DNA from: Symmachiella macrocystis
GTDB lineage: Bacteria; Planctomycetota; Planctomycetia; Planctomycetales; Planctomycetaceae
Assembly: GCF_007860075.1 (NCBI RefSeq)
Contig: NZ_SJPP01000002.1
Coordinates: forward strand, 1,302,001-1,366,000
Length of the DNA stretch: 64,000 bases
Reading direction: 5' to 3'
The notes under the pieces: generated by a model
Database searches by the model: none
Seen by the model: the letters and a program-made list of their open reading frames with translations, nothing else
Told to the model about the DNA's origin: nothing
Translations under genes and position numbers: made by a program
In this document: in pieces, positions 41,863 to 49,217 of the stretch
How the letters are laid out: every line of letters begins with the position of its first letter
Position numbering within the stretch: position 1 is the stretch's first letter

Positions 41863-43029
41863 TTATTTTTCGGCAGATGGAGGACGAATGGTGACCTGCA
41901 ATCCATTTCGCTCAATCTCGGCCCCGACCTGCTTGATGAAAGCGGCAAGATAACCGTCAATTGTCGTTTTGGTCACATGAATATCGACTTTCTGCTCCAG
42001 ATCGATCCCAGCGGTGGCAAGCGCCTTCGTATCGTAGGTGAAGGTCATTTTGTACCGCTTCTGCAAATCCTTGATCAGTGCAAGAGCCGGGACACCCATG
42101 ACCCGCAATGTGATGCGTTCGTTTTCCAGCGGATCGTCGGCAGCCTTGCCGGGGTGCTCTGCGATTTTGGGTTGCGGGGGATGTAAGACTCGTTCAACGG
42201 TCTCGTGCTCTTCGATCGTCCCCAACACGACAATTTTGCCTCCCTCGCTACGCTGTAGCAAACCGGGCAGCTCAGCGGTGATGAGTTCCGCCGCCTCTCG
42301 CATGGAATGTGGGCTCGGATTGTGGCCGCGCTCGAGCACCACTTTTTCGGGGATGGGGACAAATTCAATTTCCGTCGCCCCGCTTCGCCAATGAAACGTC
42401 AGGTCGAATTGGACCAGAATCAACGACAACGCTTCAGCAGCGCTGTCGGCAATGAATGTCCCTCCGCCCCAAAGATCGTGGGGAATCTGTTCGCCGCCCA
42501 CGATTTTTAGTTTGTATTGCCGAGCGATGTCATTCAGAATCTCCGCCGGCTGGTCAAGATCCTGCCAATGGATCGTCTGGCGTTTGGCAAGGCGTTGTCG
42601 ATGCTCTCGGGTAATCTCCCCAGCGCTAGCCAACTCTTCGGACCTGAGTGCAATCAGCGTGCGCAGCTTCTGTGCGGCAAGTTCGGGCCCGACATAAGCC
42701 GTGTTGCTGACAAAGCGTATGTCACCGCCTGCCAACGCACTGACATCGGTCACGACGTCCCGCGCCGGTTTGGGGACAGTCGAGAAGCTGACGACGGCAT
42801 CGGCATCGATTCGCCGATCACGGAGAAACGCAATATGGTACTCGGTGGTCAGCCGCTCCAAGATGGTGCGAACGTCAACATTTTCCCAGCGGACCGAGAT
42901 ATGCTGATTCAGCGTCTGTTCAAAAGCTGCCCCCTGGACCAGTTCAGGAACCGGCCGGTCGCTGACAACGGAAAACCCCGGCTCAGCGGCTAGACAACAT
43001 CCCAGCATCATCAATGAAAGACACGACAC
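41863..43029 (-). CDS. Exported protein with three STN/secretin-N-like modules
   Basis: About 388 residues. The GTG at 43029 is preferred over a TTG at 43056 because AGGGAG lies seven bases before it, whereas the TTG sits inside an intergenic repeat. A signal segment (CLSLMMLGCCLA) is followed by three similar modules of the STN/secretin-N type: VRWENVDVRTILERLTTEY, IHWQDLDQPAEILNDIARQY and ITLRVMGVPALALIKDLQKR. Each is a short alpha/beta fold known from TonB-receptor and secretin N-termini and often repeated in planctomycete exported proteins. No TonB barrel or secretin follows. Function unknown; it is divergent from the Hsp70 gene. Confidence 0.75.
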   Translation of the reverse strand: MSCLSLMMLGCCLAAEPGFSVVSDRPVPELVQGAAFEQTLNQHISVRWENVDVRTILERLTTEYHIAFLRDRRIDADAVVSFSTVPKPARDVVTDVSALAGGDIRFVSNTAYVGPELAAQKLRTLIALRSEELASAGEITREHRQRLAKRQTIHWQDLDQPAEILNDIARQYKLKIVGGEQIPHDLWGGGTFIADSAAEALSLILVQFDLTFHWRSGATEIEFVPIPEKVVLERGHNPSPHSMREAAELITAELPGLLQRSEGGKIVVLGTIEEHETVERVLHPPQPKIAEHPGKAADDPLENERITLRVMGVPALALIKDLQKRYKMTFTYDTKALATAGIDLEQKVDIHVTKTTIDGYLAAFIKQVGAEIERNGLQVTIRPPSAEK

Positions 43030-43044
43030 CGATGTTCTCCCTCT

Positions 43045-43132
43045 AAGTCGTTTCAAAACCCTCTGACGCGTCCCACTGACACTGATCTGATCGTTTCGGA
43101 AACATGCGCAACCGGGTTTTGAAACTGGTTCT
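43045..43132. repeat. 88-bp dispersed repeat, copy A
   Basis: Nearly the same sequence occurs at 48814-48902; the two copies differ at about seven positions plus one single-base insertion. Its ends form a 12-bp inverted repeat (GTTTCAAAACCC / GGGTTTTGAAAC). This copy lies between the divergent STN and Hsp70 genes, immediately upstream of the STN-protein coding region. The gap up to 43269 otherwise holds nothing recognised. Confidence 0.85.
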
Positions 43133-43269
43133 AAGCCGACGGCTAAGACGGGGTTGATTCAAAGGGCCGGCCCTGCCACACTAAATCGAAGCTGGTCGTG
43201 CCGACTCCCCTCTCGGCCCATCGAATTCTAACACGAAAGTGCGTCTAGCAAAACGAGGAAGTCGCCCTT

Positions 43270-44949
43270 ATGTTGACAACGCACGCCGTGGGAATCGACC
43301 TCGGGACAACGAATTCGTGTATCGCCTACCTCAACGAGCACGGCGAACCGGTTTCGATTGCCAATGAGGAAGGGGAAATCACCACGCCCTCGGTGGTGCT
43401 CTTTGATGAAGATGGCCCCATTGTCGGGAAAGAAGCCTTCCGCAACGCGATTGCGACCCCGGAATACGTGGTCATGAATGCCAAACGGCATCTGGGGCAT
43501 CCCAAAAAATGCTGGCGGATTCGGGGAAACGTATACACACCGACCGACATTGCCGCTCTCGTGCTCCGAAAGCTGCTGCGCGACGCCGAAAAAAAAATCG
43601 GCAAAGTCCAGCGGGCGGTCATCACGGTCCCTGCGCAATTCAGCGACGCGCAGCGTCAAGCGACGATCAAGGCGGGTTTGGCGGCCGGTTTGAAACATGT
43701 GGACATCATCAACGAACCGGTGGCTGCTTCGCTGTGTTACGTCCTGGGGGCGGAGGGATTGTGGTTCTCAGAATTGGCTCATTCACAACGCATTTTGGTT
43801 TACGACCTGGGTGGCGGCACGTTCGACCTGTCCTTGGTGAACTACGAAAAAAACCAGGTGAGCGTGTTGGCATCGACAGGCAATTTGAAATTGGGGGGCA
43901 TCGATTTCAACCGCGCTTTGGCCGGACATGTTCGCAAGCAATTCATCAAGGAGCTTGGACTGGACGTTGCCGAAGATCGGCAGAGCTTGCAGTATCTCGC
44001 CATGGAAGTCGAACAGGCAAAGCGAAGCCTTTCGGCGCGGGAACGCGCGGCACTAAGTTGTACGCACGCCGGCAAACGCAAGACTTATCAAGTAACGCGC
44101 GCGCAATTCGAAAAATTGACCGCGGGACTCATGAAGCGCACGCAGGACATTACAGTCAAACTGCTGAAAAAAATGAACATGGGTTGGGCGCACGTCGATG
44201 TGGTGCTGACCGCCGGCGGGGCATCACGGATGCCAATGGTTCGCGATATGCTCCAGGGGATGAGCGGATGGACGCTCAACACATCGTTGTCTCCCGACCA
44301 ATCGATCGCGCACGGCGCCACTTATTATGCGGGCATGCTGCTCAGCAACAGCGAGTTTGTGCATTCCATTCGAAACGACGTCGTTGTGGACCGCTTAGCC
44401 GGATTTCGCCAACAAAGCGTGAGTTCCCGCGCACTCGGAATTTTGGTTCGCGATCCAGTAACCAGCTATCGCTTTCCGCACTACATCCTCCCGGCGAACA
44501 CACCGCTGCCCGCCTCGGTTTCGCATGTCTACGGCACGGTCCAACCGGATCAGCGCCGCGTGCATTTACACGTGATTGAATCGGGAGAGGATGACGGGCA
44601 AGACTTCGTGCATGTGGGGGGGTGCAAGGTCGAAGACCTGCCTGAGAACCTGCCGGTGAATTCGGAAATCGAGGTGACGATTCACTACGATGCCGCCGCC
44701 AAGGTGCACGTGTCGGCCCGTGAAATCAAGAGCGGCAAACAAGCCACAGCGGAAATCGATCGCACAGAAACCCCAGCCACAGAAATAACCACGCCCCAAG
44801 CTCCAGCCCCGCAAAAAAAAACCACTCCGGCACGGACACCCAAGCCCCAATCCCCCCCGCGCAACCCCGCCCCCGTTGCTTCACGCGACATCGGCAGTGC
44901 GACCGGCGAAGACGAGTTTTATCGCTTCTTCGAAGACGCGGGTGACTAA
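43270..44949 (+). CDS. Hsp70-family (DnaK-like) protein with Pro-rich tail
   Basis: A 559-residue chaperone-type ATPase. The nucleotide-binding domain shows GIDLGTTNSC (residues 8-17), INEPVAASL (about 148), VYDLGGGTFDLSLV (about 178) and GGASRMPMV (about 320). A shortened substrate-binding beta domain follows (LGILVRDP..., PANTPLPASVSH). Instead of the DnaK lid there is a Pro/Thr/Lys-rich linker (about 505-545) and an acidic end EDEFYRFFEDAGD. It is therefore not the housekeeping DnaK (about 640 residues). There are no DnaJ or GrpE genes nearby. It is divergent from the STN gene, with 240 bases between. Confidence 0.9.
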   Translation: MLTTHAVGIDLGTTNSCIAYLNEHGEPVSIANEEGEITTPSVVLFDEDGPIVGKEAFRNAIATPEYVVMNAKRHLGHPKKCWRIRGNVYTPTDIAALVLRKLLRDAEKKIGKVQRAVITVPAQFSDAQRQATIKAGLAAGLKHVDIINEPVAASLCYVLGAEGLWFSELAHSQRILVYDLGGGTFDLSLVNYEKNQVSVLASTGNLKLGGIDFNRALAGHVRKQFIKELGLDVAEDRQSLQYLAMEVEQAKRSLSARERAALSCTHAGKRKTYQVTRAQFEKLTAGLMKRTQDITVKLLKKMNMGWAHVDVVLTAGGASRMPMVRDMLQGMSGWTLNTSLSPDQSIAHGATYYAGMLLSNSEFVHSIRNDVVVDRLAGFRQQSVSSRALGILVRDPVTSYRFPHYILPANTPLPASVSHVYGTVQPDQRRVHLHVIESGEDDGQDFVHVGGCKVEDLPENLPVNSEIEVTIHYDAAAKVHVSAREIKSGKQATAEIDRTETPATEITTPQAPAPQKKTTPARTPKPQSPPRNPAPVASRDIGSATGEDEFYRFFEDAGD

Positions 44950-45008
44950 CACCGGTGTCCCACACCACACCCTCTTGATGTATTACGCCAAACGAGAAAC
45001 CGCTCTCC

Positions 45009-46118
45009 ATGCGCATTGACCGAATCGAACTTTACCATGTGGCGATGCCACTGATTTATCCTTGGCGGACCGCCTACGGTGAGGATGCGGCCATCCATGC
45101 GGTGCTGTGCCGTATTGTGAGTGGATCGGTGGATGCCTGGGGCGAAAGCGCGCCGTTTGCCGCCCCCTGCTATAGCCCGGAATGCGCAGTGGGAGTCTTC
45201 AGCGTCGCCCGCGATTGGTTGGCCCCCGCACTGCTCCACCAGGAGTTGCCGACAAGTGTGGAACTGCAAAACCGTCTAGCGATCTACAAGGGCAACCCCT
45301 TTGCCAAGGCAATGTTCGACAATGCTTGGTGGAGCCTAAAAAGTAAAATCTGCGGCGAACCGTTGCACCGTCTGTTGGGAGCAACCCGAGATCAGATTCC
45401 AGTCGGCGCGGACTTTGGTGTGATGGACAACACCGACGATTTATTAGCCGCGATCGACACAGCTGTCGCTGAGAAATTTCCGCGGGTCAAACTCAAATTC
45501 CGACCGGGTTGGGATCTGGAGATGCTCCGCGCCGTCCGCCAACAGTTTCCCGACCAGACGTTTCACATCGATTGCAACAGCGGATATCGACTTGAAGATC
45601 TGCCGTTGTTTCAAGAAGTGGACGAATTCCGCTTGGCAATGATCGAACAACCACTGCAACATGATGACGTAATCGATCATGCGGAGTTGCAGCGGCAAAT
45701 CGCGACGCCGGTCTGCCTCGACGAAAGTGCCACGAATCTGCGAACCGTCCAGCAAGCGCTGCAGTTGGGAAGCTGCCGTTACGTGAATGTCAAACCGGGA
45801 CGCGTGGGGGGATTGACCAACGCCGTGGCGATTCACGATGCCTGCCAAGCTGCGGAGATTCCCTGTTGGGTGGGCGGAATGCTGGAAAGCGCAACAGGAG
45901 CGGCACACTGTGTGGCGCTGGGTATGCTGCCGAACTTTATCTATCCGGCCGACATTTTCCCCTCCAGCCGATTCTATCACGAGGATCTCTCGTCGCCGCC
46001 TTTGGAATTGATGACGCTGCCCGATGGAACACCCGGCGTGGCTGCGCCGGCCACTTTGCCGGAACCGGTGACAGAGCGATTGCAACAGCGCACATTAGAA
46101 CAAGTCGTACTCACATAG
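45009..46118 (+). CDS. menC: Enolase-superfamily o-succinylbenzoate synthase
   Basis: A 369-residue enolase-superfamily enzyme. The KxK pair is VKLKFRPG, the metal ligands are Asp in HIDCNSGY, Glu in MIEQPL and Asp in CLDESATN, and the second lysine is in NVKPGRVGG. The MPLIYPWRTAYG start and CWVGGMLESATG motif match the MenC/N-acylamino-acid-racemase branch. MenC dehydrates SHCHC to o-succinylbenzoate in menaquinone synthesis. No other men genes are in the window, so N-succinylamino-acid racemase remains an alternative. It follows the Hsp70 gene by 59 bases. Confidence 0.88.
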   Translation: MRIDRIELYHVAMPLIYPWRTAYGEDAAIHAVLCRIVSGSVDAWGESAPFAAPCYSPECAVGVFSVARDWLAPALLHQELPTSVELQNRLAIYKGNPFAKAMFDNAWWSLKSKICGEPLHRLLGATRDQIPVGADFGVMDNTDDLLAAIDTAVAEKFPRVKLKFRPGWDLEMLRAVRQQFPDQTFHIDCNSGYRLEDLPLFQEVDEFRLAMIEQPLQHDDVIDHAELQRQIATPVCLDESATNLRTVQQALQLGSCRYVNVKPGRVGGLTNAVAIHDACQAAEIPCWVGGMLESATGAAHCVALGMLPNFIYPADIFPSSRFYHEDLSSPPLELMTLPDGTPGVAAPATLPEPVTERLQQRTLEQVVLT

Positions 46119-46163
46119 CGCACAGTGATCCCCGTAGACCTGCGAAGCTATAAGGGGGCGCAC

Positions 46164-46194
46164 AAAAACAGGGGAGTCCGTTGCCAGACTCCCC
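46164..46194. terminator. Bidirectional terminator between menC and a lipoprotein gene
   Basis: An 8-bp stem GGGGAGTC / GACTCCCC with an 8-base loop (46171-46194), followed on the minus strand by TGTTTTTG. It suits the minus-strand lipoprotein gene well and could also stop menC transcripts from the other side. Confidence 0.75.
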
Positions 46195-46234
46195 CATTTC
46201 GAGACTTTGTCAGTCTACGTCTTGCGACGTCTGA

Positions 46235-46438
46235 CTAGTTTTCAGCGTCCGCATCTTCAGCAGATTCTTCAGCGGCCGGCTCTTCGACAACCGTTTCATC
46301 GACTTCGACTGCTTCATCACCAGTCGTGGCGGCGGGGGTTTCGGCGGGGGGAGCCGCATCTTCAGTGGCGGCGCCACCGCAACCGATTTGTGCAAAGCTC
46401 ATTCCGACGACGGCAAACAGTACGAACAATTTTTTCAT
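46235..46438 (-). CDS. Small acidic lipoprotein-like protein
   Basis: 67 residues. A signal segment (MKKLFVLFAVVGMSFA) is followed by QIGCGG with the likely lipidated Cys20. The rest is low-complexity and strongly acidic (Ala, Glu, Asp, Pro, Thr; VEEPAAEESAEDADAEN). GAGGAG lies about ten bases before the ATG. The gene is followed by a good terminator. The role is unknown; such short disordered lipoproteins are common in planctomycetes. Confidence 0.75.
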   Translation of the reverse strand: MKKLFVLFAVVGMSFAQIGCGGAATEDAAPPAETPAATTGDEAVEVDETVVEEPAAEESAEDADAEN

Positions 46439-46662
46439 CTTAAAGATACTCCTCGAAGTCTTTCCAGGTCAAAAATCAACCGCTGACAGCGCTTTAAACA
46501 TACGATTCAGGCGGCCGGCTCGAGAACATCACGAGCAATCTCAAATCCAAACAAATGGTTTGCGTACCTCAGTCGCAACCCGCCAACGGCAGTGTCCGTC
46601 GAAAACGTGAAACGACATCAATTCATTTTTCGCAAACCGGGTTCCGACCGTCCTTGGCTGCG

Positions 46663-46908
46663 TTATTCGACCGAATCCGTGGCGGGTTCGGCCGCATCTC
46701 CTGTGCTTTCCGGTTCCGATTGCCCCGGCTCTGATTGACCAGGTTCTGATTGCCCAGGTGGTGCATCGGTATCCATCGTGGCATCGGTTGTGTTGGCTGC
46801 CCCATCCGTGGGCAACGTTTCCTCAGGAGGACCTCCGGCGGGGCCACAACCAATGACCCCACTGATAATCAGGACTGCCGAAACGAGAATTGGGCAAAAA
46901 ATCCGCAT
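46663..46908 (-). CDS. Small lipoprotein with GQSEP repeats
   Basis: 81 residues. A perfect Shine-Dalgarno (AAGGAGG) lies six bases before the ATG at 46908, which is rare in this window and fixes the start. The signal segment IFCPILVSAVLIISG ends in VIGCGP, a lipobox with Cys. The mature part is acidic and contains three exact copies of GQSEP. It resembles the 46235-46438 gene in design but not in sequence. The strong ribosome-binding site suggests high expression. Function unknown. Confidence 0.78.
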   Translation of the reverse strand: MRIFCPILVSAVLIISGVIGCGPAGGPPEETLPTDGAANTTDATMDTDAPPGQSEPGQSEPGQSEPESTGDAAEPATDSVE

Positions 46909-47323
46909 TCTCAACCTCCTTACAAACCGAAATTGGAAACCAAATCGAATTGCGAATCGTCTAATCAGCGAAGACCACAGTACGAATAATCCTTGGTATC
47001 CACCATTTTAAGATGCGCCAGGCAGATGATTATTCCCGGAATACTGTAAACTTTCAAGAAATAGAGCCAACCAATCCATTAGTTCGACGAATTCCTCAGG
47101 GAAACCGCCCATAATGAACCTCCCAACGACATGGAACTAACTTCAACGACGGCCGCAGCATCACTTAGAAATCGAAAATCACTTGTTAATTTTGTGGTTA
47201 GGGTTGCCGCCCGGTATCCTCATAAAGAGAGCTGCTTGGCGAGAAACGCTGTGAATCCGGGATTTTTTGTTTTAGTGGGGAATAATACCCACAAGAATCG
47301 GATCAATACTCATAGAAAATGCC
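46909..47323. other. Divergent intergenic region, A/T-rich
   Basis: About 415 bases with clearly lower GC than its surroundings, separating a minus-strand lipoprotein gene from the sigma factor. It should hold promoters in both directions. A 66-codon frame at 47131-47331 was not accepted: it runs through the sigma start and looks random. Confidence 0.5.
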
Positions 47324-47869
47324 ATGTGTGAAGCCCTCAGCGCGCCCAACATGATCGAACTCGTCAGGCAGCACCATTCTCTGCTGTATCGGTACGCGTA
47401 CCGTCTCAGCGGGTCGGCGGCCGACGCTGAGGATTTGACACAAGAGACCTACTTGCAAGCGTGCCGAAAAATCGACCAGTTGCGGGATCCGGGCAGTGCC
47501 AAAGGGTGGCTATGCACGATCCTCCGCAACCGTTATTTGAAGCGACTAAGAGACAAAGACCACGCGGAGCTCCCCTTGGGGTCGGCACTGGAATCGATTC
47601 CAGAACCGAAATCCGCTGACGCAGCGATGTTTGGAATTGATTCCGATCAACTACAGTCGGCTTTGGGGGCTTTGCCGGAGTCATTCCGGTCCCCCTTGAT
47701 TTTGTTTTATTTTGAAGAATTTAGCTACCAGGAAATTGCGGACCAGATGCAAGTTCCCGTCGGGACAGTGATGAGCCGTCTCTCACGGGCCAAAGCGCAT
47801 TTGCGACAAGAATTGCTCCAAGCCGCCCAATGCGGTTCCACCCGTGATTCGGTCACGTTTCCTATTTGA
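47324..47869 (+). CDS. ECF-type RNA polymerase sigma factor
   Basis: A 181-residue sigma-70-family factor with only regions 2 and 4. Region 2 contains LYRYAYRLSGSAADAEDLTQETYLQA, and region 4 ALPESFRSPLILFYFEEFSYQEIADQM followed by VPVGTVMSRLSRAKAHLRQ, the -35-recognition helix. The ATG at 47324 has no good ribosome-binding site; a second one at 47351 is possible. The anti-sigma-like gene lies 126 bases downstream. Regulated promoters cannot be identified. Confidence 0.93.
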   Translation: MCEALSAPNMIELVRQHHSLLYRYAYRLSGSAADAEDLTQETYLQACRKIDQLRDPGSAKGWLCTILRNRYLKRLRDKDHAELPLGSALESIPEPKSADAAMFGIDSDQLQSALGALPESFRSPLILFYFEEFSYQEIADQMQVPVGTVMSRLSRAKAHLRQELLQAAQCGSTRDSVTFPI

Positions 47870-47910
47870 ATCACAACAGCCCCACTTGATTTGGGGGCCA
47901 TTCGGACGAC

Positions 47911-47941
47911 GCACCGGGCAATCTGGTGCTGTGTGTTTTTT
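47911..47941 (+). terminator. Hairpin with T-run between sigma and anti-sigma genes
   Basis: Stem GCACCGG / CTGGTGC (one G-T pair) with loop GCAAT, then TGTGTG and six T. In this position it could reduce transcription of the anti-sigma gene relative to the sigma gene. The offset of the T-run makes it a weak terminator. Confidence 0.5.
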
Positions 47942-47995
47942 GAGAATTGATTTCCCACAGGGGAATTTAACAGCGGAATGAGACAGAGGAACGAG

Positions 47996-48796
47996 ATGGA
48001 TTGCAGCAACGCACTGGCGAAACTTGAGTTGTGCCGGTCCGAAGCGTGCGCTGAAGACGATCCGGAATTGACGGCCGCCTCCGCACATTTGGCGGACTGC
48101 TCACGTTGTCGAACCATCGTTGCCAATCGTGAAGAGATGGACAGCGCCATTGCCGCAGTTTGCCGCGACGTGCCAATGCCCGCCGGTCTAGAAAGCCGCC
48201 TGCAAGAAGCTGTCCAAGCCGAACTTGCCGCTCAAACCGTTCCCCTTCCAGACGACAAACCACGCCAATCACAGCCTCCTCGGCGGTTCCGCCAAATCAC
48301 GGTGATCGCTGCGAGTCTGTTGTGCCTCGTCGTCGGTGGGTGGTACTGGATTGATTATTCGACGGTGAGTTTGAATAAAGTCACCCAGGCCGCTTCACAG
48401 CAATTGGATTCCCAGGTGGCAGGACCATTGTTCTCCGGACTGTTTGCCCCCCAGCAGTCAGCTCCGACCGCAGCGATGGATTTCACCTCGTTGACGTGGA
48501 TGGACGACTACCGGGAATTGTTTCCGCAGCGACTGTCGCTCGACATTGCGATCTCCGAATTTGAATTTCGCAGCAACGGTGGCCGCACGATTCGAGGTGC
48601 TTTGATCATCGCGCCGGCAGCTAAGATCTGGTCGTCGCCGACAGCCACCTCGATGGCCAGTGCGACGCCGATCTATCATTCGCGATTCAGCGCGGTCTCT
48701 TGGCGCGACGGCGATTTCGTCTACGTCTGCTTAGTGCAAGGCGGAGATGCCCCGCTCCGCGAACTACAGCGACAAGACCGTCAGCAGACGACCTAA
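47996..48796 (+). CDS. Putative membrane anti-sigma factor
   Basis: 266 residues. The ATG at 47996 has GAGGA six bases before it; an upstream start at 47978 is less likely. The N-terminal domain holds HLADCSRC, the His-x3-Cys-x2-Cys signature of zinc anti-sigma (ZAS) domains. One membrane segment (ITVIAASLLCLVVGGWYWI) lies at about residues 98-118. The outer part (about 148 residues) has no recognised sensor domain. It probably binds the sigma factor encoded just upstream and releases it on an envelope signal. Confidence 0.8.
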   Translation: MDCSNALAKLELCRSEACAEDDPELTAASAHLADCSRCRTIVANREEMDSAIAAVCRDVPMPAGLESRLQEAVQAELAAQTVPLPDDKPRQSQPPRRFRQITVIAASLLCLVVGGWYWIDYSTVSLNKVTQAASQQLDSQVAGPLFSGLFAPQQSAPTAAMDFTSLTWMDDYRELFPQRLSLDIAISEFEFRSNGGRTIRGALIIAPAAKIWSSPTATSMASATPIYHSRFSAVSWRDGDFVYVCLVQGGDAPLRELQRQDRQQTT

Positions 48797-49217
48797 CGGG
48801 AACGTCTTACTACAAGTCGTTTCAAAAACCCTCTGACGCGTCTCACTGACACTGATCTGAACGTTTCGAGAACAAGCACAACCGGGTTTTGAAACTGGTT
48901 CTCGCTGGCGGCCAATGTGAATGCTTTTCTGCGCACGGGATTTGAGATGCCGTTCGCCGCTCGCGAAATCGAGAATTGCTGGAGAATTCGGCAAAATCGA
49001 TTCAATCGTTACACTCCCCGCAACCGATATAGCAATGGAAGTCGACGGTGCGCGATATCTCATGATTCATTCGCCCGCCGATACGGCCATGACGAATCCT
49101 GTCTGTCTCGGGAATCGGGACTTGGTGAATTCAAACCACAATTTTTCGCGTTTTTCGCTACGGACCGTCGGCACTACGATTTGATGCCACGGGACGAATA
49201 GCGGAAAGGAAGTCCTC
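48797..49217. other. Intergenic region
   Basis: About 420 bases between the anti-sigma gene and a small secreted-protein gene. It contains repeat copy B (48814-48902) and otherwise no recognised signal except an AAGGAAG ribosome-binding site for the next gene at about 49207-49213. Confidence 0.5.
48814..48902. repeat. 88-bp dispersed repeat, copy B
   Basis: The second copy of the element at 43045-43132, in the same orientation. It ends with the same inverted repeat GTTTCAAAAACCC / GGGTTTTGAAAC. It lies 18 bases after the anti-sigma stop. Confidence 0.85.

Follow-up and report, generated by a model that had tools for sequence, protein, structure and literature searches.

Two similar intergenic sequences in the window, the whole 64,000-nucleotide stretch of Symmachiella macrocystis DNA analyzed here, raise the question of whether they are copies of a small mobile element or, as the initial annotation also considered, a regulatory RNA or DNA site shared by genes for envelope and stress proteins. 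Our results indicate that they very probably belong to a family of non-autonomous, IS5-type MITEs. Both copies are present as 88-bp elements in the same orientation, within a few bases of where they were first placed, and each becomes slightly longer when the dinucleotide on either side is included. Specifically, copy 1 spans 43042-43133 on the plus strand with its bordering dinucleotides (element proper, 43044-43131), and copy 2 spans 48811-48903, also on the plus strand, with an extra A in its left arm. The core pair of the terminal inverted repeats (TIRs), GTTTCAAAACCC / GGGTTTTGAAAC, is intact in copy 1, with exact 12-bp ends at 43050-43061 (left, plus strand) and 43114-43125 (right, minus strand). 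Copy 2 retains an exact right core (48884-48895, minus strand), and its left core (48819-48831, plus strand) carries the inserted A (GTTTCAAAAACCC), such that the earlier claim of preserved 12-bp ends holds for every arm except this one. The reported agreement of about 92% was recovered over the core (92% identity by BLAST, query 16-103, E=9.9e-30), and end to end, with the bordering dinucleotides, the copies agree in 83 of 93 columns (89%). Within the window alone, the 12-mer with up to two mismatches was not enriched (10 matches versus 7.45 expected).

The gene context of both copies was also as first described. Copy 1 lies between divergent ORFs (41863-43056, minus strand, and 43270-44949, plus strand), and copy 2 starts 14 bp past the end of an ORF at 47978-48796; the names of the neighbors (STN, Hsp70, and anti-sigma) are putative, having been assigned from translations. 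The longest start of the ORF to the left of copy 1, a TTG at 43056 on the minus strand, falls in the left arm of the element (43042-43056). Since this insert is absent from the same-genus genome G001, the true start probably lies further in, or an alternative start was supplied by the element. In a contig scan, the protein encoded there had two distant matches, at 35% and 32% identity, in a Planctomicrobium piriforme MAG and a Planctomycetota MAG, respectively.

Beyond the window, the element proved to be highly repeated, a property that the initial annotation had named as informative. Its own genome (G000; 7.57 Mb in 6 contigs) holds at least 107 distinct places at E<=1e-3, a lower bound because 150 of 2973 first-look candidates were scored; the search returned 118 rows at E<=1, and setting aside 10 that exceeded 1e-3 left 108, one of which duplicated another on the opposite strand. 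In G001, at least 120 places were found at E<=1e-6, with 150 of 3122 first-look candidates scored. The search profile was derived from 30 copies. Its model (R1) used a 10-pair structure from RNAalifold, distinct from the TIR stem, and acted in effect as a sequence profile with rough E-values. Exact matches to the 12-mer were likewise abundant in G000 (40+49, versus 0+3 for a reversed control) and G001 (66+64, versus 0+2). Across 99 genomes, among them the own one, DNA matches at E<=0.001 occurred in nine: three belong to the genus, five to other genera within the family, and one (G068) to a different family, the matching stretch there being one end of an insertion sequence (IS). In two genomes, G025 and G046, there were 94 and 82 first-look candidates, with nine scored in each and zero and three matches, respectively; these are possibly other families of short repeats with similar ends.

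The copies share a compact and uniform shape. Analyses of individual copies drew on the 92 G000 rows of at least 45 bits, the 15 weaker distinct places at E<=1e-3 being left aside. Of these, 72 are exactly 92 bp with their borders, and the strands are mixed (52 plus, 40 minus). The 12-bp cores sit inside 20-bp imperfect TIRs and, among the 72 full-length copies, vary least (5.7% and 8.3%), while the center varies most (24-28%), as would be expected if spread were limited to copies with good ends. By eye, two groups with good ends and differing centers could be discerned in G000 (L129, L135, and L142 versus L122, L131, L133, and L146), which may represent separate amplification bursts. One further copy (L123, G000:C1:4016710-4016824) is 115 bp long and seems to contain an internally duplicated stretch of about 23 bp; a shorter form occupies the corresponding place in G001.

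The location of the copies relative to genes is strongly biased. Only 3 of 33 G000 copies with long flanks and 1 of 30 G001 copies lie in a predicted gene, compared to surroundings that are 70-75% coding by the same caller. This caller uses a crude codon score, marks 77% of the window as coding, and misses some ORFs, such as that at 47978-48796. The intergenic bias is most simply attributed to selection against gene disruption. The remaining G000 copies lie between tandem (16), divergent (6), or convergent (2) genes, or have one side without a called gene (6); in G001, the corresponding numbers are 18, 4, 4, and 3.

The insertion sites themselves record how the element arrives. Among the 92 G000 copies, TA is found at the start in 53, at the end in 63, and at both in 40, and the site around these 40 is most often CTAG (15), followed by TTAG (10), TTAA (5), CTAA (2), and others (8). 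The target is symmetric, with a T at -4 and an A at +4, each in 57 of 92 copies. Comparison with the closely related G001, in which the protein to the right of copy 1 is 96% identical and that before copy 2 is 90% identical, reveals two empty sites. The place of copy 1 is empty in G001 and reads TTCTCCC-TA-AGCC, where the window has TTCTCCC-TC-[88 bp]-TA-AGCC, a net difference of 90 bp that corresponds to the element plus one dinucleotide. Here, the right TA of the target duplication is at 43132-43133, and its left counterpart, TC at 43042-43043, is read from the sequence as a former TA that has changed. At the second of these sites (L048 against L207), one TA is again present, next to a substitution. 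The search for flanking duplications that had been proposed for this locus found TA duplicated relative to two empty sites, and the element moves, as the empty G001 site of copy 1 differs from the occupied one by 88 bp and one duplicated TA. In principle, the empty sites could be exact excisions.

At the place of copy 2, where the right dinucleotide is TC, G001 holds an element in the same orientation, and this insertion is therefore older than the split between G000 and G001. Pairing the two genomes more broadly, 48 of the 92 G000 copies had both flanks matched to one G001 locus, of which 46 hold a copy and 2 are empty; the G001 loci compared covered 110 of its 120 copies, with L176 and L180 in addition, and were mostly places with a copy. 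The remaining 44 of the 92 fell outside the pairing, two of them with a one-flank match only. In one case (L193, G001:C1:7572611-7572794), two adjoining copies occur where G000 has one (L120), probably because a newcomer inserted right beside an older copy, at its border. No identical copies were found: the best pair agreed at 89 of 92 positions among 30 copies in G001 and at 96.7% among 72 in G000. The closest compared pairs differ by about 3%, so very recent movement is not indicated, and the family is presumably mostly old and now mostly inactive.

Candidates for the mobilizing partner are provided by ISs that carry ends of the same type. The G068 match belongs to an 880-bp IS (L069/L096). 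The two 20-bp ends of this IS are identical, start with TA, and agree with the right end of the MITE at 19 of 20 positions. The IS encodes two frames that overlap in a region containing an A-run. PF13340 matches the first frame and PF01609 the second; against the IS5-family model NF033580, the second frame scores above the cut-off and the first below it. Single frames reached this NCBIfam cut-off in only two of six transposase pieces. The own genome has two related ISs, L097 (931 bp) and L100 (922 bp), with 51% and 48% identity, respectively, to the second frame of the G068 IS. Their ends agree with the MITE at 15-17 of 20 positions on the right and 12-15 of 20 on the left; L100 is bordered by TA on both sides and L097 on neither. 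Sharing of TIRs with an autonomous IS5-family element was thus found through the right end (19/20 for the G068 IS, 15-17/20 for those in G000).

The transposase was detected at E<=1e-30 in 34 of 150 genomes of the family, and end pairs of the MITE type flank 16 of 34 IS loci (15 distinct elements, as L098 and L312 are one element of G020). As controls, a reversed pattern gave 2 of 34, and 100 shuffled patterns averaged 0.5, with a maximum of 4 of 34. TA is present at both borders of 13 of these 16 loci, the exceptions being L097, L298, and L307. A scan for ends of this type alone found no such pair at the other 18 loci, and none of the 34 carries both MITE ends exactly; by eye, the interior of the MITE has no clear homology to the partner ISs. 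We take the partner transposase to be a candidate member of the IS427 group, a placement with which its two overlapping frames and their A-run are compatible. This group of the IS5 family is described as having two overlapping frames with a frameshift motif (PMC3281130).

Under the model we favor, a two-frame DDE transposase of the IS5 family would act in trans, recognizing the element ends, TACAAGTCGTTTCAAAACCC and TAGAACCAGTTTCAAAACCC (read inward, with TA as the target). It would place the element in a YTAR target, CTAG being the commonest, and TA would be duplicated upon insertion. The IS5-type transposase found here, or a close relative since lost, presumably moved the element. The suggestion of a small non-autonomous mobile element made in the initial annotation is supported: the sequence is short, lacks a transposase gene, and occurs in many dispersed copies with TIRs and a target-site duplication. 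The reading as an IS5-type MITE is supported by these TIRs, the copy number, the TA borders, the two single-TA empty sites, the IS5-family ISs with ends of the same type in the own genome and in related ones, and the neutral-like decay of shared copies.

A small chance, best described as unlikely, goes to some remaining function of the ends, which might, for instance, be bound by a host protein, or to mobilization by an only distantly related transposase. Room for these options exists because about 100 copies per genome persist, the TIR cores are somewhat better kept than the interior, also where orthologous copies are fixed, and no matching IS5 partner was detected in G001.

Counting against the favored model, G001 yielded no match to the partner transposase at E<=1e-5, despite its at least 120 copies; one of its other IS5-type genes has ends of a different kind, and no ends could be located around the remainder. 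With neither a transposase match nor matching ends in G001, the mobilizer there appears to have been lost or to be different, and its copies look orphaned.

The second proposal for this locus, a shared regulatory RNA or DNA site, would make the copies functional intergenic elements maintained by selection near genes for envelope and stress proteins; it is not supported and appears very unlikely. The similarity of the two window copies over their whole length, center included, speaks for it, and three further observations lean in its direction. The plus-strand RNA of copy 1 folds better than shuffled sequences (z -3.4); the TIR cores accumulated fewer changes (37 of 528 positions) than the interior (119 of 1144) in 22 gap-free orthologous pairs (Fisher p 0.03); and double changes in the arms slightly exceed expectation (9 versus 5.4). 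The lower change in the TIR cores might be explained by base composition and leaves a weak residue against a purely MITE-based reading. However, the minus strand of copy 1 and both strands of copy 2 fold no better than shuffled sequences (z -1.2, +0.9, and -0.4), and gene context and orientation vary among copies. Further, across 44 orthologous pairs, the element is more diverged (498/4011, 12.4%) than the adjacent 50 bp on each side (419/4354, 9.6%), being more diverged than its flanks in 28 pairs and less in 16 (Wilcoxon p 0.01). These are 44 of the 48 pairs; both empty sites were set aside, as were L158/L238, with 14 element columns aligned, and L141/L271, which has a short flank. Compensatory cells are rare (3 of 112 altered arm-pair cells), a fold of 30 sequences contained no pair changed on both sides and did not recover the TIR stem, and Rfam gave no match in the window at the gathering threshold. 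This slight excess of divergence over the flanks, together with the scarcity of compensatory pairing, lends no support to a conserved RNA or a regulatory site. Of the two marks of a structured RNA, conservation above neutral was not observed, and covariation was no more than rare. A very high copy number without RNA conservation, the outcome that the initial annotation regarded as favoring a plain repeat, is what these data display.

Assigning the MITE to another TA-targeting family, such as IS630/Tc1-mariner, is highly improbable. This family also uses TA and CTAG sites, the TA target is compatible with it, and IS630-like DDE_3 matches are present in G000 (1) and G001 (3). However, the four DDE_3 gene loci have no TIR-core pair at one mismatch or fewer, the single GTTTCAAAACAC in the G001 DDE_3 copies lies inside the transposase ORF, and the matching ends are instead carried by IS5-family elements. 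An IS630 partner, suspected from the TA/CTAG target, was dropped because no matching end pairs surround the DDE_3 genes.

A REPIN or REP-type identity of the element, with a REP-associated tyrosine transposase (RAYT, Y1_Tnp) as the mover, is scarcely credible. Its inverted halves, intergenic placement, and roughly 100 copies fit, as do Y1_Tnp matches in G000 (2), G001 (8), and G002 (6) and the REPs reported from Planctomycetes (PMC3733652), but the two empty sites reveal TA duplication, ends of the same type sit on DDE-type IS5 elements, and neither a GTAG nor a CGTC tag stands on the 5' side of a stem-loop in the consensus ends, a single arm offering only GTTT-CA-AAAC.

The probable IS5-type MITE identified herein is new as a sequence family and known as a kind. 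Among the papers searched on MITEs and REPINs in Planctomycetes/Planctomycetota, no title concerned such a family. Our results provide a MITE family with a likely transposase family and with TA duplication at two empty sites, as well as insertions that two close species either share or do not, and they explain a repeat that could otherwise be mistaken for a regulatory motif. Among known systems, REP/REPIN repeats with their RAYTs are likewise short, intergenic, numerous, and composed of inverted halves, but the element studied here has a TA duplication and 20-bp TIRs and lacks a GTAG/CGTC tag. The Correia elements (NEMIS) of Neisseria, of about 107-155 bp, are described as having TIRs, TA at the ends, and a target duplication (PMC2229807); they are unlike the element in their 24-bp TIRs, two size classes, and sequence. 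The IS5-family ISs tentatively assigned to the IS427 group likewise have ends with GTTTCAAAACC and mostly TA borders, but a transposase is missing from the 88-bp element, whose interior bears no visible relation to theirs. By our comparison, the closest parallel in design is RUP of pneumococcus, described as 107 bp long with 108 intergenic copies, a TA target, and IS-like TIRs, and proposed to be mobilized by IS630-Spn1 (PMC2229807). As far as that description goes, RUP and the element are alike in size class, intergenic copies, TA target, and IS-like TIRs, and they differ in sequence and in the type of the proposed partner, which is IS630 for RUP and IS5 for the planctomycete element.
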